From NCBI RefSeq assembly GCF_026914265.1, contig NC_069135.1, forward strand, positions 33,489,756 to 33,553,755: a DNA stretch of 64,000 bases. Reading direction: 5' to 3'. A program made the translations under genes and the position numbers. How positions within the stretch are numbered: position 1 is the first letter of the stretch; each line of letters opens with the position of its first letter. Below the pieces are notes generated by a model. The model was given only the letters and a program-made list of their open reading frames with translations, did not search any database and was not told where the DNA came from. Below are positions 38,111-61,099 of this stretch, piece by piece. Origin of the DNA: Mya arenaria (lineage: Eukaryota > Mollusca > Bivalvia > Myida > Myidae).

Positions 38111-38424
38111 TATTCTTATCGGGTGACACACCTATCTCGGTAATATCACGTGATAACGCCGACTAGCCAATCATGCACAAGGAATGAATTCTACCTTGTA
38201 GACATACCCAGTAATCTTTTTAATGGAAAATACGAAATAACTGCTGAACTTAATATATATGCAAAAAGCTACAGAAACATGCTCAGTAGCAAAAAGTTTA
38301 AACATAAACCCGGTTTAGTGGCAATGGGCAACGCCAAAGACATAGAACACAAATTCACAAACAAGAAATATATATATATGAATCCGTGGAAACAGTAACG
38401 ATGGTTTAATATGTGGTATGATTG

Positions 38425-41400: not shown

Positions 41401-44400
41401 CCATTTTTCAATTTGTTGTTACAGTGACCTTGCCTTAAACCTGGCCCCCTCTAAAGCAAAACCGTACTCTTCACATAAGCCTCCTTCACATTTTTTTTAT
41501 TTACTTTCATTACTACCCATCAATGCTAGCTTAGTTTATTTCTTAGCTTTCTCTTCACGTTCTATCTACATTTCATATTTCATTTATATCCATCAATTCT
41601 TACTTAAGTTATTGGGCGAAAACTATTTTTCTATTCAGTAATAGTGACCTTGACCTTGACCGTAACCCCATCCCCCTCAAAAGCAATCCCAAGCTAGCTC
41701 TTCATATAAGCTACATACATAACAGCTTTCATTAGTATCCATCCATTCTAACTTAAAGTTTTGGACAGAAAACCATTTTCCCATTTTAAATTACAGTGAC
41801 CTTGACCTGCCCCTCTCAAAAGCAATTCCAAGTTGGCTCTTTACATGCGCTACATACACACCTACTTTTATCACAAATAGTCTATGGAATATATGGCTAA
41901 CCATTGGTTTCCGCCCAATAACTTAAGCTAGCATTTGCCCTAGGGTTTTTTCATGTCATATAAATGCAACATTAGCTAGCAAATGTATGTCTTACCATAC
42001 AAAAGAAGGGTGATGTTGCACCACTGTCTTTATTGTACAACATCAGAATGATGTTATTCCCGTCCGTACTTGTATTAAAGCTGAATAAACAGCCCAGCTG
42101 ACCATCCGCTGAAAAAAAAGAAAAACAAGGATGAAGTAAACTTACAGACATGTTATCAAAGTCATTGCAATTATTATATTTTATTGTAGCTACAGAGATA
42201 CAGTTGTTCACGCAGTTCGAACAGATCCGCGTAAGGTTTGTTTTTGCTAAACTAGTATTAGAGCCGGTGATTAACTTAGTTGATAAAGGAGAACTACATG
42301 TTGTAATAAACTCAAACATTTAATATTGTTCAACATTTGTGAAACGAATTATTAACTAATCAAAGATAAATTATATGGTGTACTCTTGGTGGTACGAAGT
42401 TACGATAAAGTGGGGACATTCGTTTTGGAGGATACCGGAATAAACATTCGGAGCTCCTCGACCATTTTTATCGAAAACAACCTCGGATGTATTTGGACGG
42501 TTTACATACTCAAAAAGTGGTACGTTTAAGTCCGCTGCAAGTAGATCGCGTTGTAATTTTAGCAGTTAAACTTTGTGACATTACTCTTGGGAATCTTTAT
42601 TATGTTTGTAATACTACACTTCACTGGCAATCAATTAAAACTTAGATCGATAAATACAACTCTAAAACACTACATTTAATTCATGATATAATTAAAACAA
42701 GAGGGCCATGATGGCCCTAAATCGCTCACCTGAGTAAAAGAGTTTAACCTTTGTTATTAATATAGCTTGTTTCTCAAAGAATATTGAACAAGAGCTGTCA
42801 AAGTATGTGACAAATGCCCCCCAATGTGACATTGATCTATGAACAAGTACATAAAAAGTTGATCTTGCCTTTATGTGTCAAATACATATTGCAAGTTATA
42901 TTAAATTGCCTCTGAGCATAGAAAAAAACAACCAATCATACTAAATGACAGCCAACACTCTTTATGTCCTCATATTCAGCATTCCATTGTGAATAAACAC
43001 TTAGTGTATCTTTCACCTTAGAGGTAGGGACATGGGTCTTGCACACGACACGTTGTCTTGGTATGTCGAAAACATATGGCAAGTCATATTAAAATCTGTC
43101 CATATAAGAGTAAGTCACAGCGCGGACACGACAGCCTATATTTTCCTTCAGGTTGCCATGGCAACCAGAGTTCTGCATGGAATTAATTTTTTTGAACAAT
43201 TTTGAAAAAGCACCAACCAAGGATCATTCCTATGAAGTTTCATCAAAATTGTCCAAGCGATTTAGGAGAAGAAGATGATTGTAACCAATTGTTGACACTT
43301 TTCCTTTAGGTTGCCATGTCAACCAGAGTTCTACATGGAATTAATTTCTTTGAACAATTTTGAAAAAACACCAACCAAGGATCATTCCTATGATGTTTCA
43401 TCAAAATTGTCAAAGCGGTTTAGGAGAAGAAGATGATTATAACCAATTGTTGACATTTTCCTTTAGGTTGCCATGGCAACCGGGCCAAACAAAATTATGT
43501 GAACAAATTTAAGAGAGGTCCATGCAAGGACACTCCAAACCAAATTTGCTGAATATCTATCAAGGGGTTCATGCGAAGAAAATGTTAAGTTTTTTTTACT
43601 AATTCTAGCTCTGGTGGCCCTTAAAAGGGGCCAAACAAAATTATTTGAATAGACCTGACAGAGGCCCATGCTAGGATGCTTCAGACTTGAAGATCCATCA
43701 AGCAGTTAATAAGATCAAGTTGTTTAAAGGTTTTTCTATTTTTTGCTCTGGTGACCCCTAAATGGGGCCAAACAAAACCATTTGAACAAAGTTGAGAGAG
43801 GACCATGTAAGGATGCTACATATCAAGTATGGAGTCATTCTGACCTTTACTTTCAGAGGAAAAGATATTTAAGTGACAAGACAAGATTTTATAAGTTTTC
43901 ATCATATACATATATAAGAAAACCCATGACCGCCCGGGTGGGGCCATTTTTTGACCCCAGGGCCAAAGATTGAACAATATTGGTACAAGTCAACTAGATG
44001 ATATATCATGCCAAATATCTAAGCTCTTGTCACTACTTGATTTTACGTGTGTATCTATATATGTATATTTGTTATTAATTGTTGTATGTGGCCCATATTG
44101 AAAATTGGTATGTGTACTAAATATGTTATCCAGTTTAAATTAAGACGTTACTTGTCTTTGTGAGTTCGGAGAAGATTTTTTTTAGTTTTCACTATAACAC
44201 ATATAGAGAAAACCCATCAGCCCCGGGGTGTGGCCAATTTTGACCCCAGGGCCATAATTTGAACAATCTTTGTAGAGGTCCACTAGACGAGGAATCATGC
44301 CAAATATCTAAGCTCTAAGCCACTAAGTTCAGAGGAGATGATTTTTGAAGTTTTCACTATAAACATATAGAGAAAACCCATGACCCCCGAAGGGGGTGGG

Positions 44401-47400
44401 GCCAATTTTGACCCCAAGGCCATAATTTGAACAATCTTTGTAGAGGTCCACTAGACGAGAAATCATGCCAAATATCTAAGCTCTAGTCCAAGTAAGTTCA
44501 GAGGAGAAGATTTTTGAAGTTTTAACTGTAAACATATAGAGAATACCTTAACCCCCCTGGGCGGGGCCAATTTTGACCCCAAGGCCATAATTTGAACAAT
44601 CTTTGTAGAGGTCCACTAGACGATGAATCAAGCCAAATATCAAAGCTCCAAGCAACTAAGTTCAGAGGAGAATTTTGATTTTTTTCAATATAAACATATA
44701 GAGAAAACCCATGAACACCCAGGGGCGGGGCCAATTTTGACCACAGGGCCATAATTTGAACAATCTTTGTAGAGGTCCACCAGACGATGAATCATGCCAA
44801 ATATCTAAGCTCTAGTCCAAGTAAGTTCAAAGGAGAAGATTTTTGAAGTTTTCACTACAAACATATAGAGAAAACCCATGAACACCCAGGGGCGGGGCCA
44901 ATTTTGACCCCAAGGCCATAATTTGAACAATCTTTGTAGAGGTCCACTAGACGATGAATCATGCCAAATATCTAAGCTCTAGTCCAAGTAAGTTAAGAGA
45001 GGAAGATTTTTGAAGTTTTAACTATAAACATATCAAGTATACCCATGACCCCCCGGAGCGGGGCCAATTTTGACCCCAAGGCCATAATTTGAACAATCTT
45101 TGTAGAGGTCCACCAGACGATGAATCATGCCAAATATCTAAGCTCTAGTCCAAGTAAGTTCAAAGGAGAAGATTTTTGAAGTTTTCACTACAAACATATA
45201 GAGAAAACCCATGACCCCCCGGGGCGGGGCCAATTTTGACCCCAAGGCTATAATTTGAACAATCTTTGTAAAGGTCCACCAGACAATGAATCATGCCAAA
45301 TATCTAAGCTCTAGTCCAAGTAAGTTCAGAGGAGAAGATTTTTGAAGTTTTAACTATAAACATATAGAGCATACCCATGACCCACCGGGGCGGGGCCAAT
45401 TTTGACCCCAGGGCCATAATTTGAACAAACTTTGTAGAGGTCCACTAGACGATGAATCATGACAAATATCTAAGCTCTAGTCCAAGTAAGTTCAGAGGAG
45501 AAGATTTTTGAAGTTTTAACTATAAACATATAGAGCATACCCATGACCCCCCGGGGCGGGGCCAATTTTGACCCCAGGGCCATAATTTGAACAAACTCTA
45601 TAGAGGTCCACTAGACGATGAATCATGACAAATATCTAAGCTCTAGGCCAAGTAAGTTCAGAGGAGAAGATTTTTTAAGTTTTCACTATAAACATATAGA
45701 GAAAACCCATGACCCCCCAGGGCGGGGCCAATTTTGACCCAAGGGCCATAATTTGAACAATCTTGGTAGAGGACCATTTGGTGATCCTACCTACCATATA
45801 TCAACGGCCTAAGCCTTGTGGTTTGGGAGAAGAAGATTTTTAAAGTTTTTCCTTTCCATTGCCCTGGCAATCAGAGTTCTGCATGGAATTCAATTCTTTG
45901 AACAATTTTCAAAGGGGACCACCCAAGGAACATTCCTGTGAAGTTTGGATGAAATTGGCTAAGTGGTTTATGAGGAGATGTCGTTTAAAGTAAAAGTTTA
46001 CGGACGGACGGACGGACGACGGACGGACGCCGGACAAATTGTGATCACAAAAGCTCACCTTGTCACTATGTGACAGGTGAGCTAAAAATAGGAACTACTT
46101 CAACTGATGTACCGGCATACATCCGAGGTTGTTTTCGATAAAAATGGCCGAGGAGTTCCGAATGCGGAGTAAACAGAGGTAACCTACTCGACCGTCTGTT
46201 GAACACATATCAAAATCACAAACACCCGAGCCGATAGTTTGATGATTTAACCCGTCCGGGATGCCTTACTATAAAAAAGTGTACAAGCTACTGCCATAAC
46301 AACCGATTAAAATCTGTATTTAAATGCACATCAATTTTGTTAAAAACAACAATAAGAACCAACGCACGTACTCGTCGAAAAAGGGTTTGCCGTACAGTCG
46401 GAAGTGGTATTGACTTGGAGCTTGGTTTTGTTTTGGTCCTCACATGATGCTATGAACCCTGTGTAGTTTGACGAACAGTCCACTGTGCTAGAACTTGTGA
46501 TGTAGTTGAAAAAGTAGTACCCGAGGAGCGGGTCCGGGCATTGGTCATCTCCAGTTGTTTCTGTACCTATAACCGAGAAACTAGATTGTTAATAACCTTG
46601 TTGTTCAGCATGTGCGTCATAAATGCTACGTCGGAAGGCAACATTTTGCTCCGAATGAAAAATTAAAACAAAGAAAAACACACAGGTTCACCCATTCTCT
46701 CTCATAAAAGGCTCGAACACTTAATCTGGGACAGCATCTCTACACACTACCACCCACCTCCTCTGATGTATGGCTTGAACGCTTTATCAAGGATCGCCTC
46801 ACTACACACGTTCACCCACCTCCTCTGATGTTAGGTTTGAATATTGTGTCCAGGACCGCCTCTCTACACACGTTCACCCACCTCCTCTGATGTTAGGTTT
46901 AAATACTGTGTTTAGGACCGCCTCTCTACACACGTTCACCACCTCCTCTGATGGTAGGTTTGAATATTGTGTCTAGGACCGCCTCTCTACACACTATCAC
47001 CCACCCCCTCTGATATAAGGTTTAAATACTGTGTCAAGGACCGCCTCTCTACACACGTTCACCCACCTCCTCTAATAAAAGGTTTAAATACTGTGTCTAG
47101 GACCGCCTCTCTACACACTTTTACCCACCTCCTCTGATGTAAGTTTTGAATATTGTGTCTAAAACCGCCTCTCTACACACTTTTCACCCACCTCCTCTGA
47201 TGTTAGGTTTGAATACTGACTCTAGGACCGCCTCTTTACACACGTTAACCCACCTCCTCTGATGTTAGGTTTGAATACTGACTCTAGGACCGCCTCTTTA
47301 CACACGTTAACCCACCTCCTCTGATGTTAGGTTTGAATATTGTGTCTAGGACCGCCTCTCTACACACTATCACCCACCCCCTCTGATGTAAGGTGTAAAT

Positions 47401-50400
47401 ACCTCTCTACATACGTTCACCCACCTCCTCTGTTGTAAGGTTTAAATACTGTGTCTAGGACCGCCTCTCTACACACCTTCACCCACCTCCTCTGATGTAA
47501 GGTTTAAATACTGTGTCTAGGACCGCCTCTCTACACACTTTCACCCACCTCCTCTGATGTAAGGTTTAAATACTGTGTCTAGGACCGCCTCTCTACACAC
47601 TTTCACCCACCTCCTCTGATGTTAGGTTTGAATACTGACTCTAGGACCGCCTCTTTACACACGTTAACCCACCTCCTCTGATGTTAGGTTTGAATACTGA
47701 CTCTAGGACCGCCTCTTTACACACGTTAACCCACCTCCTCTGATGTTAGGTTTGAATACTGACTCTAGGACCGCCTCTTTACACACGTTAACCAACCTCC
47801 TCTGATGTTAGGTTTGAATACTGACTCTAGAACCGCATCTTTACACACGTTAACCCACCTCCTCTGATGTTAGGTTTGAATACTGACTCTAGGACCGCCT
47901 CTTTACACACGTTAACCCACCTCCTCTGATGTTAGGTTTGAATACTGACTCTAGGACCGCCTCTTTACACACGTTAACCCACCTCCTCTGATGTTAGGTT
48001 TGAATACTGACTCTAGGACCGCCTCTTTACACACGTTAACCCACCTCCTCTGATGTAAGGTTTGAATACTGACTCTAGGACGGCCTCTTTACACACGTTC
48101 ACCCACCTCCTCTGATGTAAGGTTTAAATACTGTGTCTAGGACCGCCTCTTTACACACGTTAACCCACCTCCTCTGATGTTAGGTTTGAATACTGACTCT
48201 AGGACCGCCTCTTTACACACGTTAACCCACCTCCTCTGATGTTAGGTTTGAATACTGACTTTAGGACCGCCTCTTTACACACGCACACACTCACCCACCT
48301 CCTCTGGTATTAGGTTTGAATACTGACTCTAGGACCGCCTCTCTACACACACTCACCCACCTCCTCTGATGTTAGGTTTGAATACTGTGTCTAGGACCGC
48401 CTCTCTACACACTTTCACCCACCTCCTCTGATGTTAGGTACGGTGTCTAGGACCGCCTCTCTACACTCTTTCACCCACCTCCTCTGGTATTAGATTTGAA
48501 TACTGTGTCTAGGACCGCCTCTCTACACTCTTTCACCCACCTCCTCTGATGTTAGGTTTGAATACTGACTCTAGGACCGCTTCACTACACACACTCACCC
48601 ACCTCCTCTGATGTAAGGTACGGTGTCTAGGACCGCCTCTCTACACACACTCACCCACCTCCTCTGATGTTAGGTTTGAATACTGTGTCTAGGACCGCCT
48701 CTTTACACACACTCACCCACCTCCTCTGGTGTTAGGTTTGAATACTGTGTCTAGGACCGCCTCTTTACACACGCTCACCAACCTCCTCTGGTATTAGGTT
48801 TGAATACTGTGTCTAAGACCGCCTCTCTTCACACACTCACCCACCTCCTCTGATGTTAGGTTTGAATACTGACTTTAGGACCGCCTCTTTACACACGCAC
48901 ACACTCACCCACCTCCTCTGGTATTAGGTTTGAATACTGACTCTAGGACCGCCTCTCTACACTCACTCACCCACCTCCTCTGATGTTAGGTTTGAATATT
49001 GTGTCTATGACCGCCTCTCCACACACTCACCCACCTCCGCTGATGTTAGGTTTGAATACTGTGTCTAGGACCGCCTCTCTACACACTTTCACCCACCTCC
49101 TCTGATGTTAGGTTTGAATACTTTATCTAGGACCGCCTCTCTACACACGCTCACCTACCATTACGGATGAAAGGCTCGAACAATTCGTCTGGGACCGCCT
49201 CTGTACAAACGTTCACAGCCGCGATGGTGTCAGTCACCTTGTACCCGTGTATCCGTTGGCCAGAATAATAATCTTCTTCCACTGTAAAATTAAAGTACAA
49301 AGACAAATAGAAGTTTCAATACCATTAAAAAGACATGAAATCGGAGGTAATGAAAATATCACATAAACAATAAAATACTACAGATCTTCACTTCTGAATA
49401 TGAAACAGTTTATACTGAAGTTAACACCAAAATATTGGTCTTTTTTACATACAATGTATATGGGTTTTCTATGCTTTTGTGCGTGACGTTTGTGGACACA
49501 TATATAAAACACAACAGAATATCTCCAAGATTAGAAAGTGCTTTACTTTTCTTTATAGCGAAATTGACGTCGCTATCAAGAAACAATATATCCTTTAAAG
49601 CTGCACTCTCACAGATTGAACCTTTTGAAAACTTTTTTCATTTTTTGTCTTGGAACGAGCCAATTTTTACGAAAAACCATGGAAACCAGTTATATAAGAC
49701 TGCTGAAAAAATTTAGATCGCATATTTTTATATTTAAGTTAAAAAATATGATGTTTTATGCATTTTTCTTAAACCGTAAGTAACGGTTTAAGCCATAAAA
49801 CATTAATTTTCGAATGGAAATATGAAAATCTCCGATCTGATTTTTTTCAGCAAACTTATATCATTGGTTTGCAGATATTTATGCAAAAATTGCTCTTTCC
49901 AAGACAAAAAAATAAAAAAAGTTGTAAAAATGGTATATCTGTGAGAGTGAAGCTTTAAACACATGTATCACTATTTCAATAACTTTTGATGTGACGTCAT
50001 AATTGAAGCGCGTTCAAAAAGTGCAAGCTACATATATATCGAAATTGTATTTAAATAGCGCTGTAAATCCTACAAAAAATTGTTATGAATATAAACAAAA
50101 TATCACATTTGCGGTCATACAGTATAGATAAAATTCATAATTGATGCATGTTTTTAGAAAACATTGTTTAATTCTATAGATACAGTAAGCAATAAGCCAT
50201 TGCATTACATTAATTTGACCTTAGGCACAGTGATTTGATGGGAATGGACTCCTGTTTTGGTGTCATTTGACCTGTACAAAATTTAGTGACATTTCACCTA
50301 AAATATGTTTTTCTTCAGATTTATTAAAGGGGTCACTCCTAACAACTATCTAGCATAAAATAACTATGAATTACTGTACTTAACAATGTCAGAAAATCTC

Positions 50401-53272
50401 GAAAGGAGTGACCCCTTTGATAAATCTGAAGAATTTTTTTATTATAGGTTAAATGCCACTAAATTATGTACAGGTCAAATGACATCAAAGCAGGAGTTCA
50501 TTCCCATCAAATCGCAGTATTCATAGGTCATGTTGACCTATTTCATATATGTATTGTTAAGTACATGTATATTTCTTTAAACAAACTTTTTTCTTCTTCT
50601 ATGAACTTTATCCAACTCGTTACGATTACTAGCAAAATTTCGCCGTGGCTCGATTTTATCAAATTTAAAAAAAAGACTTGTTTAACAAATTCTTTATGAA
50701 AATAACCACGCATGTAAATTCTTCTAAATATTATTTAATAAAGGAACGAGAGAGGTCATACGTGAATTAAAGTAGACGTAATATGCGTCTGCCCTGGCTT
50801 CCACGACACGCAGACACATCCAGGAAGCATAGATGTCACTCAGAGCAAAAGGCTTAAAAGTGGTCGTTGATCTGGAAAATATAAGCATGGATGCCCGTTT
50901 CATAAATCTGAATGTTCTGTAAGGGTAATAGTTTGATATCAATAAATGCTCAATCAAGCATACCGTCAACGTAGCTCACACATAGATTGGTAAAAATGCT
51001 TACACTCTTAACTATCATTAGGTATTGGTATACACGCAAATTGCTTAATAGTAACGCTGCAGTGTGTTCAGTAGGGCGAGAGTTTACTTTACGCAAGAAA
51101 ACCGTTTTGTTTTGAATCCATATAGCAAAGAAAGGCATGCAATTCAAGCGGGGAACCAAGGTTCATCATGTTGAGCCCAAAACAACTTAATGGCAACATG
51201 AATTTTTTCATAGTCAGTCAAATAAAGTACAGAATGTTGAACAGTACAGAGCAGAACAGTGCATAACATATTAATTATGCACCAGTCAATTGTACCCCCC
51301 CCCCCCCCCCAGGTCAGGGGAATAGCGGGGACTTTGACTTTCGGTCCAGCAAACCCCGGGTAAAATCACCGCCATGCGGGGACGACCTGATGGTCAAATC
51401 CCCGCCAAATGACCCCGCACCACAGGGTGCCTAGGTAAGGCCCATTCCCCGCTATATTTTGTGCGAAGACAAAACCACCGCATTCACCCGGCACTGCGAG
51501 GCCACCTGAATGGGAAAAACACGGCCCATTTCCTCGGCTATCCCCGGTATACCCCCGGACCTGGGGGGCCCGTGGTTACAATTGACAAGTGCATTACAAA
51601 CTCATAGTCATACAAGCACATATACAAACGAAAACATGGCATGTGACAGAACTATAATTCTTATAAATTGAATTTCTTAAACACGCAAAAGACACACATG
51701 GCAAGTAGGGAAAAATTCCATTTGTTTCATTTAAAATGGTGTTGTAAATGAAAAGTTATCTTTGATTTAAGTCTTCATTTTAGGCATTTTTTGCCTTCCG
51801 ACGTACTATATATGACGTAATTAATCACGTGGTACACACACACTATACACGTACCAGCCATAATTCACCAGGAGCTATGAAGGTTTCCAAAACTTGGACA
51901 TGAATGACAAGTTATTAAGAATGATGTTTCAAACTTGGGCTTAAATTACATAATTGTTAACATGAGTATCTCAAACTTGGCCATATATTACGTAATTTTA
52001 AACATAAGTTTCTCAAACTTGGTAATAAATTACATAATTGTTAACATAAGTTTCCCAAACTTAGCCATACATTACATAAGTTGCATATTCGGTATATAAG
52101 ATTTTAATTCTTGGACATGCATACATAGCGCTGTTTAAAAAATGAATAATATTAACATACTTTTTTCGGATTAGGTCAGGGTCATTGTTTAATATTGATC
52201 TTATCCTTATCCTAAGACAAGCTTCAGTGATTCCACTCAGCCTATTGGTTAGCTAAATATACCGGCCAATCAAAAAACTTAAACTCTTATCTTAAATTTA
52301 AGTTCCATCTAAGTTGCTTATTGAATACAGCCCCAGAAATAACTTTTGAAACCAGTGCAAAAAAAAACGTTCATACTTGACAACGAAGACCGATTCTCCA
52401 TTGTATGTATCATTTTCTATACACTCAAACTCGTTCGCGATGCTTGCATAAGCCGCAAGTGTCGTATCCACGGTGATATGCGTGGAGTTGACCGTCCATC
52501 TACCCTGGCTGGAGGTAATCCATACTCCAGAAAAACCATCCGGAAAAGGACAAGAAGCTGGAATGAATGGGGAAGGAGAGCTGTCATTACAATTATACGA
52601 GCTTAAAAAGGATGAAAAGCGGAGAATTTGGCTAAGCGGAGAAATCTTCTCGGAACAACATCGTGCAGACGTCACGACTTGGGATTTGTACATTGAAAGC
52701 TGCACTCTCACAGATTTACCATTTCTACAACTTTTTTTTATTTTTTGTCTTGGAAAGAGCATTTTTTTTGCGTAAATATCTGCAAACCAATGATATAAGA
52801 CTGCTGACAAAATATCAGATCGTAGATGTTCATATTTCGGTTCTAAAATTAATGTTTTATGGCTTAAACCGTTACTAACGGTTTATGATAAATGCATAAA
52901 ACATAAATTTTCGAACTTAAATATAAAAATTTGCGATCTTATTTTTTGTCAGCTGTCTTATATAGCTGGTTTCCATCGATTTTCGCAAAGATTCGCTCGT
53001 TACAAGACAAAACAAGTTGTCAAAACGCTCAATCTGTGAGAGTGCAGCTTTAATATGGTTTATCAACAACGAATGTGATCTCTTAAAGTCGGCTTAAATC
53101 TGGTGCGGCAAAATGACATCGTAATCTTGAAATACTGCTAAAAACGGTTTAAAGTCAGAATTAATTATCAATTTCATTTTTTTATTTATATAAAATGGTA
53201 TGTAAATGCGAATAAAAACATGTACAACTTACTTGAAAAATGCAGTAGTCCAAACAATATAAAATGTCTCAT
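38425..53272 (-). CDS. Secreted Cys-rich, probably GPI-anchored protein (DUF7042/7044-like)
   Basis: Eight minus-strand exons join with agreeing phases: 53272-53233, 52557-52377, 50871-50762, 49281-49159, 46566-46372, 42108-41996, 40981-40858 and 38558-38425. Total 1020 nt, 339 aa. Residues 1-15 form a short signal peptide (MRHFILFGLLHFSTS). CPFPDGFSGVW (16-26) matches the start of the DUF7044-type extracellular domain. A second segment begins CPDPLLGYYFFNY at 161. The mature part has 12 Cys and nine N-glycosylation sequons. A Ser/Thr stretch and SSG (313-315) are followed by a 22-residue hydrophobic C-terminus, the layout of a GPI signal; a C-terminal membrane anchor is the alternative. The ligand is unknown. 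The introns are full of repeats (see 39662, 42698, 46688, 49595, 50216, 51285, 52693). Exon calls rest on phase and splice consensus, not on transcripts. Confidence 0.72.
39662..39745. repeat. Perfect hairpin, 41-bp arms, 2-base loop
   Basis: 39662-39702 is the exact reverse complement of 39705-39745, with TC in the loop. It lies in the last intron (40858-38558) of the secreted-protein gene. The flanking bases do not pair further. The loop is too short for a typical miRNA precursor. It could be a small foldback element, a recent inverted duplication or an assembly artefact. Confidence 0.9.
41411..41950. repeat. Degenerate tandem repeat with 'tgaccttgacc' motifs
   Basis: Two and a half diverged units of roughly 200 bp, each with 'agtgaccttg', a C-rich stretch, 'aaagcaa' and 'ctcttcatataagc'-like strings. 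It lies in intron 6 of the secreted-protein gene and resembles other non-autonomous repeats in this window. Confidence 0.55.
42698..46080 (-). mobile_element. Non-autonomous Helitron-like element in intron 5
   Basis: Read on the minus strand it starts TCACCTGTCACATAGTGAC at 46080, just inside a stem with AGCTCACC arms. It continues through a GTCCG-rich stretch and ends at 42698 with hairpin GGGCCATCATGGCCC, then TCTTG|T. A second, different Helitron-type 3' end (AGCTCTTG|T, minus strand) is nested at 42789. It has no transposase ORF. Most of the inside is a 166-bp tandem array. It lies wholly within intron 5 (46371-42109) of the secreted-protein gene. Confidence 0.6.
43930..45780 (-). repeat. 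166-bp tandem array inside the Helitron-like element
   Basis: About 11 units. The GCGGGGCCA motif recurs at 44561, 44725, 44892, 45059, 45224, 45390, 45556 and 45722, a period of 164-167 bp. Each unit also has 'ggccataatttgaacaatc' and 'gccaaatatctaagctc'. Units at the left edge are more diverged. It is non-coding; short ORFs across it are repeat artefacts. Confidence 0.92.
46615..46680 (+). repeat. Solo arm of the 148-636 MITE family
   Basis: 'cgtcataaatgctacgtcgg' followed by 'aaggcaacattttgc' matches the left arm of the MITE at 148-636. No second arm lies within 500 bases. It sits between exon 5 and the 62-bp array in intron 4. Confidence 0.65.
46688..49145 (-). repeat. 62-bp minisatellite derived from exon 4 and its 5' splice site
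   Basis: About 40 tandem units fill most of intron 4 of the secreted-protein gene and touch the end of exon 4. Exon 4's last part plus donor (49146-49207) has exactly the unit length and matches the common unit at 45 of 62 positions without gaps, counting by eye. On the minus strand each unit keeps a donor-like GGAG|GTGGGT at the place of the true ATG|GTAGGT. Outer units, such as the first at about 46690 ('aaaggctcgaacac'), resemble the exon more than central ones do. A few units are shortened or contain an extra 'cacacgcaca'. It is not a CRISPR array: there are no spacers. Confidence 0.93.
49595..49958. mobile_element. TTAA-ended MITE, copy in intron 3
   Basis: The 364 bases start TTAAAGCTGCACTCTCAC and end GTGAGAGTGAAGCTTTAA. 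The inverted repeats extend inward through 'ttgtcttgga' and its complement, with a central 'aaaccgtaagtaacggttta' palindrome. TTAA-like ends suggest a piggyBac-like or similar helper, which is an inference. It lies in intron 3 of the secreted-protein gene. Confidence 0.78.
50216..50535. mobile_element. MITE with about 125-bp inverted repeats
   Basis: 'gatttgatgggaatggactc' and 'aaaggggtcactcct' in the left arm (50216-50345) recur as complements in the right arm (about 50405-50535). The short loop has no ORF. It lies in intron 3 of the secreted-protein gene. Confidence 0.72.
51285..51586. mobile_element. GC-rich MITE
   Basis: The ends are GTCAATTGTACCCC and GGTTACAATTGAC, with paired CCAGGTC/GACCTGG blocks inside. 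The interior is rich in CCCCGC and GCGGGG strings, in sharp contrast to the AT-rich intron around it. It has a C17-type homopolymer near the left end. No ORF. It lies in intron 2 of the secreted-protein gene. Confidence 0.65.
51728..51848 (+). repeat. Solo right arm of the 148-636 MITE family
   Basis: 'aagttatctttgatttaag', then 'gccttccgacgta', then 'tgacgtaattaatcacgtgg' matches the right arm of the element at 148-636. It ends at a 'cacacacac' stretch as in that copy. Confidence 0.7.
52693..53053. mobile_element. TTAA-ended MITE, copy in intron 1
   Basis: About 361 bases, same family as 49595-49958: it starts with 'gctgcactctcacagatt' and ends 'gagagtgcagctttaa', with the central 'aaaccgttactaacggttta' palindrome. 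It lies in intron 1 of the secreted-protein gene, between the signal-peptide exon and exon 2. Confidence 0.78.
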
Positions 53273-59200: not shown

Positions 59201-61099
59201 CTATCGTCTACCATGTTCAACAGCTTTGAGATATTCACTGCAGAGAGAAAGAATGAAGCAGTGATAATGATTATAATTATCTTCCATGGCCGAGAGTGCA
59301 AGATAGGTTCATTCCGACCCGAGCGTAGGGTGTTTTGCGGAAACGAGGTTTACCGAGTTTCCACAAAACACCATGCGCGAGGGTCGGGATGAACCTATCT
59401 TACACGAGCGGCTATGGTAGATGCTTTTTCTCCCACCTCAGTTAAACAAAATTAAGTAAAAATGTATCTTTTTTGCTGGAACTCTTTTGTGCTTAGTGAA
59501 AATAATTGCGTACGGATATGCGATAATTCGTGGTTGTCATGGATATTCGCGCAGTGATACAGAGTATGTAAATGGTCTGATCGGTCTTTAAATAGTTCTT
59601 AGAAGAGTGAAGCATTATTTCTTGAAAGGTGCGTTAAAACTGTTTTCTGGTGACATTTGAAACGAGAAATAATTAACTAGCGTTCTAAATATTGCCACAA
59701 GACAAGGTTTCCATGATGCGCTACAGACGACAGTCTTCAACAAGGGAGGTAACTACAATTGGTGACCATTAAAAGAAGTTCCATACGGGCATTTTATCTT
59801 CGCCCGTGGGCAAGATAAGAATTTCTAGCATGGTTTAATTAATGGATATACTTTTCTGAGGAGGGAGAAATCAATATCTTTATATATGCATACGCATATC
59901 CATTTCATGTAGTTTTACTGTTTAAGTAATTTGGCTCCTCTAGGCAATAAAACCAGCCGTAGCAATCCACGTAAACATATCAATCTAATCGCTAATTGAC
60001 CGACATACATACTCTAAAATATAAGTTTTTAATAAAAAAAATTGACTTTATTTAGCAGTGTCTTGAGAATAGCCGCTTAAAGGTCAAATACTTAAATGTC
60101 CTACTGTATACGCCTGAGGCGACGTCATATTCATAGTAGAGAAATGGTGTGTTAGGTGCAGCTGCTGCCACCTCGGCCAGATAGTCAGCCAGGAGCTCTG
60201 AAACATTGGAGAAGTATTTATTGGAGGTCTGAAACATTGGAGAAGTATTTATTGGAGATCTGAAACATTGGAAAATCATTTATTGGGGCTCTTAAACATA
60301 AGAGAATAATTTATTGGAGCTATGAAACATTGGAGAATAATCTATTGGAGCTATAAAACATTAGAGAACAATTTATTGGAGGTCTGAAACATTGGAGAAT
60401 CATTTATTGGAGCTATGAAACATTGGATAATCATTTAGTGGAGCTCTAAAACATTAGAGAATAATTTATTGGAGCTATGAAACATTGGAGAACAATTTAT
60501 TGGAGCTATGAAACACTGGTGAAGAATTTATTGGAGCTAGCAACATTGGAGAAGAGAAGTATTTATTGGAGCTCTGAAACAATGGAAAATGTGTTGTCTA
60601 ATACGTACATCGAAAACAAGAATAGTACAACGTTTTCAAAACATATATTTTGAAAGGAGTGTATAGTCTGTCTTCTTTGCTTTGTGACTTTGTGTGTGTC
60701 TCGTTAATTGTAAATAAGGACTTTGCTGTATGCCTATACACACAGTCTTCCTAAATTATGATAATAAGCAAGACAAAAATTACAGGAATTACAGTTCGAT
60801 AAACCTACTAGTTTCCATTGACGGCTTGACAAATGATTTGAAAAAATGAAAAGGCTAACACCGTAGTAAAATATATTTTCTTTAATACACATTTGTTTAT
60901 AAGTACGATTTCAGAAATCATTTTAATAAAATATAATAATTGGAATGCGTTATATCTTCCCTTTAACCACTCTCTTATAGATATACAAACATACATATAA
61001 AGACTGCATAATTGAAGCACTACCTTCTGACGGCGGCTTATGGTAGGTAGGAGGTAGTGCGGAGATACCGTCAACTCCGAGACTTTCAGCATGACGCGC
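56245..61099 (-). CDS. N-acetylneuraminate lyase-like protein, 3' six exons
   Basis: Six minus-strand exons join in phase: 61099-61024, 60197-60105, 59237-59092, 57565-57440, 56908-56869 and 56411-56245, about 215 residues. They align without length change to the second two thirds of human-type N-acetylneuraminate lyase (class I aldolase, sialic acid to ManNAc plus pyruvate, cytosolic). Landmarks are HAESLGVDGISAL, AEVAAAAPNTPF, IPTFYGLK with the Schiff-base Lys, and SGVKVGGPRLPLP. The Tyr equivalent to E. coli NanA Tyr137 is kept in PFLYY, but the usual (H/N)IPAL that follows is EYDVA here. That suggests a diverged paralogue. The N-terminal exons (GTTGE region) are not visible; they lie beyond the window or upstream of the reverse transcriptase fragment. 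The stop is at 56247-56245. Confidence 0.78.
57566..59091 (-). other. Lyase intron, no feature recognised
   Basis: Intron between exons 59237-59092 and 57565-57440. Short ORFs inside have no domain similarity. Confidence 0.5.
59278..59870. mobile_element. Dispersed element, copy 2 (about 593 bp)
   Basis: Second copy of the element at 55001-55576, in the same orientation, inside a lyase intron. Here the first 60 bases also have an inverted copy at about 59350-59412, making a hairpin that copy 1 lacks. The inner part is again bounded by TTTCTCCCACCTCAG and CTGAGGAGGGAGAAA. Confidence 0.7.
60192..60597 (-). repeat. 31-bp minisatellite derived from a lyase 3' splice site
   Basis: Thirteen units at 31-bp steps (60192, 60223, 60254, 60285, 60316 and on to about 60569). 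On the minus strand the unit ends CCAATGTTTCAG|AGCTCC; the last copy is the real acceptor and the first six bases of exon 60197-60105. Most units keep an AG at the acceptor position, either as CAG or as ATAG. The array lies within the intron directly upstream of that exon. Confidence 0.92.

Follow-up and report, generated by a model that had tools for sequence, protein, structure and literature searches.

Minisatellites that grow out of an exon-intron boundary have been described before, though rarely, and in the literature found they come mainly from amphioxus, where such "mirages" were reported in Adh, in the globins BflGb6 and BflGb9, and in PGBD5 and TnC (PMC3902484). In these mirages the tandem repeat spans the boundary, many units carry a splice signal, the interior evolves in concert with the edges excluded, the length is unstable, and regular splicing is left undisturbed. 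In humans, the 31-bp variable number tandem repeat (VNTR) of CBS, c.1444_1467+7(16_21), has 16 to 21 copies and is polymorphic in people (PMC2630376), and minisatellites, some of them at exon-intron boundaries, occur in recent segmental duplicates (PMC2812944). Intronic repeats are also reported for an abalone TSSK1-like gene (a length-variable 27-bp minisatellite, 62 repeats as shown; PMC6905558) and for intron 1 of an earthworm metallothionein (PMC12783039); the accessible parts of these two sources describe no derivation from a boundary. In this work, a 64,000-nucleotide stretch of the Mya arenaria genome (NC_069135.1, positions 33,489,756 to 33,553,755; hereafter the window, to which position numbers refer) was analysed for a 62-bp minisatellite that follows exon 4 of a minus-strand gene. 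We consider it, with a probability of about 0.85, to be a boundary-derived intronic minisatellite of the amphioxus mirage kind.

The genome searched comprised 1,216,080,610 bases in 18 contigs, and the window lies on contig C14. Exon 4 of this DUF7043+DUF7042-type gene (49159..49281, minus strand, 123 nt) was placed by its reading frame, and the authentic donor GT (ATG|GTAGGT, 49157..49158, minus strand) by reading frame, paralog exon ends and U1 pairing, which corrects the exon and donor position of the original prediction. By wraparound alignment, the exon-4 end with the first 10 intron bases (49149..49210, minus strand) is a unit copy that is still exon, and it is followed between 49148 and 46686 by the minisatellite itself (46686..49148, minus strand; Tandem Repeats Finder (TRF) and unit tables). 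The 40 units, 32 of them exactly 62 bp long, agree with the approximately 40 copies predicted and occupy about 95% of the minus-strand intron 49158-46567. The array search also matched C17:35998287-35999841, where the same exon is followed by 23 units; units are named A in the window array and B in the C17 array. The majority unit of the window aligns without gaps to the last 52 nt of exon 4 and 10 nt of intron at 44 of 62 positions (36/52 exonic, 8/10 intronic), one fewer than the 45 first counted by eye. The original prediction had asked for a comparison with shuffled sequence: none of 20,000 dinucleotide shuffles, each taken at the best of 62 rotations, reached 44 (maximum 34/62), and the best other match of the unit among 122,678 places in the window was 30/62. 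For the C17 majority unit the agreement with the exon end is 39/62, and its shuffles reached 33 at most. Furthermore, when ten window arrays (this one and nine others) were compared with exons 3-6, only the 62-bp array matched, to exon 4. The array thus has the boundary-spanning form of the amphioxus mirages, and as in those repeats the splice signal recurs in many units: the position aligned with the donor is occupied by GT in 39/40 units of C14 and 21/23 of C17, and GAGGTGGGT is present in 34/40 and 18/23, which bears out the claim that typical units keep a donor. The peptide likeness noted earlier (VCREAVLD and VCTEAVPD) proved to be the same homology read in frame. Coding constraint on the units themselves was considered, the inferred changes by codon position being 43/23/47 (permutation p 0.012 for position 2), and was rejected, because stops occur in C17 units, B12 and B24 for example, and the unit length of 62 is not divisible by 3.

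The direction of derivation was judged from paralogs. L024, L025, and L065 carry the corresponding exon end (LC..FKVMIKSG, VC..FHTMIKTG, and IC..FHFMVKTG, respectively), each followed by GT (LCSRDLGASGSEFKVMIKSG, VCSSTPDMSEFHTMIKTG, and ICGSVTVPTEDFHFMVKTG; VCTEAVPDELFEPFIRNG in the window gene). TRF found no 62-bp array at any of the three; it reported nothing at L024, trinucleotide and dinucleotide runs at L025, and at L065 two arrays, one of 49 bp and one of 57 bp, the latter at another boundary. A search of the genome with a 124-nt unit dimer listed 44 matches, all in the two loci beside exon 4 (counts are lower bounds). The presence of the exon end in three paralogs that lack such an array makes it well supported, as far as these sequences can tell, that the exon end is older and that the array derived from the exon end and its donor. 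The growth from the exon proposed in the original prediction therefore stood, on these paralogs, the dimer search and the grouping of the edge units with the exon described below. That the intron is new here, gained when a proto-splice site was tandemly duplicated, was also considered and rejected, since in the three paralogs GT likewise comes after the matching exon end. Exons 4-5 were moreover aligned locally to four single-exon DUF7043 paralogs (L026, L028, L029, and L031), without significance (116-244 of 300 shuffles reach the score).

The second copy of the gene allows the history of the array to be followed further. Exon 4 is identical at 120/123 positions between C14 and C17, the end of intron 3 at 297/304 aligned bases (41 gap columns left out), and the distal intron flank at 112/118 (24 gap columns left out); the homology, with interruptions, extends from about window position 38382 to at least 61200. 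The intron flanks are thus 95-98% identical between the copies, and the unit consensuses differ at 7/62 positions (11%). The same array beside the same exon in both copies, with similar flanks and more divergent units, argues that the array is older than the gene duplication and that each copy has since been homogenised and has changed length separately, to 40 and 23 units. As in the mirages, evolution inside is concerted: for 59 of 63 units the closest other unit belongs to the same array and for 4 to the other array, with no ties, in line with the interior homogenisation expected from the first look at the sequence. The distal edge units are spared, A42 (46686..46747, minus strand; donor GT lost) and B25 being mutually nearest (6/61 differ) and grouping with the exon (support 0.935); nothing comparable is seen at the proximal edge. 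In ungapped comparison with the exon end, B25 matches at 49/62 and the other 17 full-length C17 units at 38-41, and A42, slightly the most exon-like of its array, matches at 45/62 and the other 31 full-length C14 units at 39-44. The claim that outer units are more exon-like thus holds for the distal-most unit, clearly on C17 and slightly in the window, and fails at the proximal side, where the units are ordinary (A03 43, B03 40 of 62). Differences between exon and edge unit fall mostly on third codon positions (7/10 in B25, 8/13 in A42), which constraint on the exon would explain. As to the length instability of mirages, the observation here is 40 versus 23 units, a difference between two gene copies and not between alleles or individuals.

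We hypothesize that the array began with a tandem duplication, directly 3' of the working donor, of a segment of about 62 bp that comprised the final 52 nt of exon 4, the donor, and some 10 nt of intron. The upstream copy would have remained exon under coding constraint, and the downstream copies would have turned into intron and diverged. Amplification to 40 (C14) and 23 (C17) units may have proceeded by unequal exchange or conversion, in keeping with the observed homogenised interior and spared distal edge. Its tolerance would follow from two predictions from sequence: splicing takes the first donor, by which the 123-nt exon is closed, and a transcript made with a later donor contains the TGA directly beyond the exon. 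No function is needed to explain the array, and a role in splicing is hypothetical. Several points weigh against this explanation. The units adjoining the exon are no more exon-like than the rest, and in C14 the distal unit leads by one base only. The units differ from the exon on average at 32% (A) and 34% (B) of positions, about one third, which suggests that the founding event is old and leaves the exact length of the founding segment a guess. The introns of L024, L025, and L065 were deduced from open frames, and normal splicing at the first donor is itself a prediction from sequence. A misplacement of haplotypes, instead of a duplication, could in principle account for the copies on C17 and C14.

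A different reason for the persistence of the donor would be that its block is kept as a recombination-prone G-rich core, GGAGGTGGG, and that donors of this type seed and drive arrays. The high share of units with GAGGTGGGT is consistent with it, as are the raw distal edge units, which are without GGAGGTGGG, and the occurrence of TGGTAGGTG at the exon donor both of L065 and of the window gene. On the other hand, the idea is post hoc, the exon donor of L060 is TGGTAAGTG, and an array on C1 described below has AAGGTAAGT, so we consider it unlikely. The human minisatellite core, which GGAGGTGGG resembles, was not found in the literature searched.

The donor-like sites may alternatively be selected for what they do. 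The original prediction had proposed that the intron offers tens of decoy 5' splice sites; what stood of it is the predicted U1 pairing, while the effects it suggested, on splice choice, through cryptic exons or as a splice-site sink, found no support. Pairing energies with the 5' end of U1 are a rough proxy and not a trained donor model. By this measure the value is -9.6 for the true donor and -10.8 for the common unit donor, GAG|GTGGGTGA, and 36/40 unit donors equal or exceed the true one. Among the GT sites of the array, 45/301 in donor register pair at least as strongly as the true donor, 36 of them at the unit donor and 9 at the homologue of a second GT. This second GT lies 4 nt past the exon-4 donor, at 49154, and overlaps it; its predicted pairing is nearly equal (-9.5), and a donor there would shift the reading frame. 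The value of -9.6 is reached by 12/3482 GT sites outside the array on the same strand, by 0/135 on the other strand of the array, and by 17/144 in the C17 array; when the window array was mononucleotide-shuffled 100 times, such sites numbered 2.5 on average and 6 at most. Furthermore, the nine donor columns carry 11 inferred changes versus a mean of 20.2, the fewest of 62 windows, tied with three others.

If these sites were used to extend exon 4, reading on through the donor would run into an in-frame TGA ahead of all units, in the first ten bases after the exon, in both copies. Extension to the unit donors A03, A10, and A41 ends in ...FIRNGR*, and the position of the TGA means that extension to every unit donor is truncated alike. 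Coding use of the unit donors is thus predicted to be unlikely, and use of the decoys would probably yield one truncated product, a target for decay. Several donors of the human CBS VNTR can be used. The array could act as a functional U1 decoy or sink that slows intron removal, blocks premature polyadenylation, or gives a controlled non-productive isoform ending at the shared TGA. The enrichment of strong sites over the surroundings, the opposite strand and the shuffles, together with the few changes in the donor columns, would fit such a role. However, ancestry and homogenisation alone explain the decoy density, the conservation of the donor columns is borderline (p 0.055 against random columns) and uneven by entropy (rank 2/62 in A, 13/62 in B), and the boundary also occurs in three paralogs that carry no array of this kind. 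We regard the functional role as very unlikely. Recruitment of the exon-4 end and its donor from a unit of an older array, a direction on which the alignment alone is neutral and to which the non-significant alignment with the single-exon paralogs, silent on the age of the exon end, raises no objection, is highly improbable in view of the matching exon end and GT in three array-less paralogs and of the unit dimer being listed at the two loci only (again as lower bounds).

Derivation from a boundary was not confined to exon 4. In L060 and L065, about 47 kb apart on C3, an exon ending in ...KFSCV is followed by 57-bp units that repeat the last 17-21 nt of the exon, the donor, and the intron start (L060:1993-2653 and L065:1973-2945). 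Including the exon's own, there are 12 copies in L060, the last one incomplete, and 17 in L065. As the boundary is another one than that of exon 4, these arrays are a separate event. Directly beyond the L060 array, the start and acceptor region of the preceding exon recur in inverted orientation (L060:2658-2737; 95% over 80 nt). Outside this gene family, a 52-bp array on C1 (L078:1648-2930; 24.6 copies by TRF) repeats an exon end and its AAG|GTAAGT donor. In L068, which covers the same array, a 190-nt open stretch follows TTTTAG and ends in ...EAFKGVSKIQ|GTAAGTGG, and this end is identical to the next unit at 49/52 positions. Unlike in the window array, the donors are kept in the proximal units and lost in most distal ones, by GC or other decay. 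The L068 exon is the sole open frame of three, with Pfam E 0.077 at best, no PDB match and no paralog, so its coding status rests on the open frame.

L068 belongs to a sample of 10 donor-motif arrays, taken from those listed first on C1 and C2, with edges judged by eye. It was the one clear boundary array; L069 was ambiguous (no Pfam match), and in the other eight no exon was apparent, although L070 contains an open stretch of 87 amino acids and L072 one of 45. Across the genome, a pattern of three AGGTAAGT at 35-65 bp spacing, to which long arrays contribute many matches each, gave 2131 matches versus 1372 for the backwards pattern (1.55-fold), and a dinucleotide-matched permuted motif gave 1187 versus 860 (1.38-fold). 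Counted as distinct arrays on C1 and the first 44.7 Mb of C2, the donor motif had 17 and the permuted motif 6 (two-sided p 0.035), a weak excess, as some of the 17 look like mirrored copies. Together with the three different boundaries, two in one gene family and one elsewhere, these 17 versus 6 arrays are the basis for a tentative suggestion that minisatellites arise repeatedly at exon-donor boundaries in this genome, that introns there grow partly by amplification of their own 5' splice sites, and that many genes carry tens of strong decoys. We hold this doubtful, the more so because the permuted motif also exceeds its backwards control, by nearly as much as the donor motif does.

The exons of the host gene were joined by hand. 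The resulting protein matched Pfam DUF7042 with E 3.8e-06, over the cut-off, and DUF7043 (E 0.0011) and DUF7044 (E 0.033), both below it. On the minus strand, exon 3 lies at 52367..52591 and exon 6 at 41996..42217, with approximate boundaries, and exon 5 at 46367..46566, with its acceptor at 46567/46566 and a provisional 3' end; the junction of exon 4 to exon 5 is in frame (...FIRNGTETTGDDQCP). The next intron of the gene contains a 166-bp array (window 44168-45776) without a match to exons 3-6. A dispersed repeat of about 600 bp lies at window 59269-59879; of 4805 candidate copies elsewhere 40 were scored, and most of those listed share 95-97% identity.

Set against the described systems, the window array differs from the amphioxus mirages in its bivalve genome and in its 40 and 23 copies, compared with 6 and 3 in two BflGb6 haplotypes. 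It also belongs to a duplicated gene pair with separate turnover, and it is known from sequence, whereas reverse transcription polymerase chain reaction was applied in amphioxus (PMC3902484). The CBS unit, by its name, likewise joins 24 exon and 7 intron bases, but it is shorter, at 31 bp, and polymorphic in people (PMC2630376). The repeats of human segmental duplications are said to form novel introns (PMC2812944), whereas the paralogs of the window gene have the same boundary. No boundary-derived case in a bivalve was found among the papers listed, which is no proof of absence from the literature. What is new here is thus the bivalve genome, the high copy number, the independent turnover of the array in two gene copies, and boundary arrays at two more places (the C3 pair of 57 bp and that of 52 bp on C1). 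The locus offers a natural test, in two gene copies with arrays of unequal length, of how a spliceosome chooses the first of tens of near-identical donors that are each strong. Should arrays of this kind turn out to be common in bivalves, they would be one way in which introns lengthen and would link copy-number variation to splice sites.
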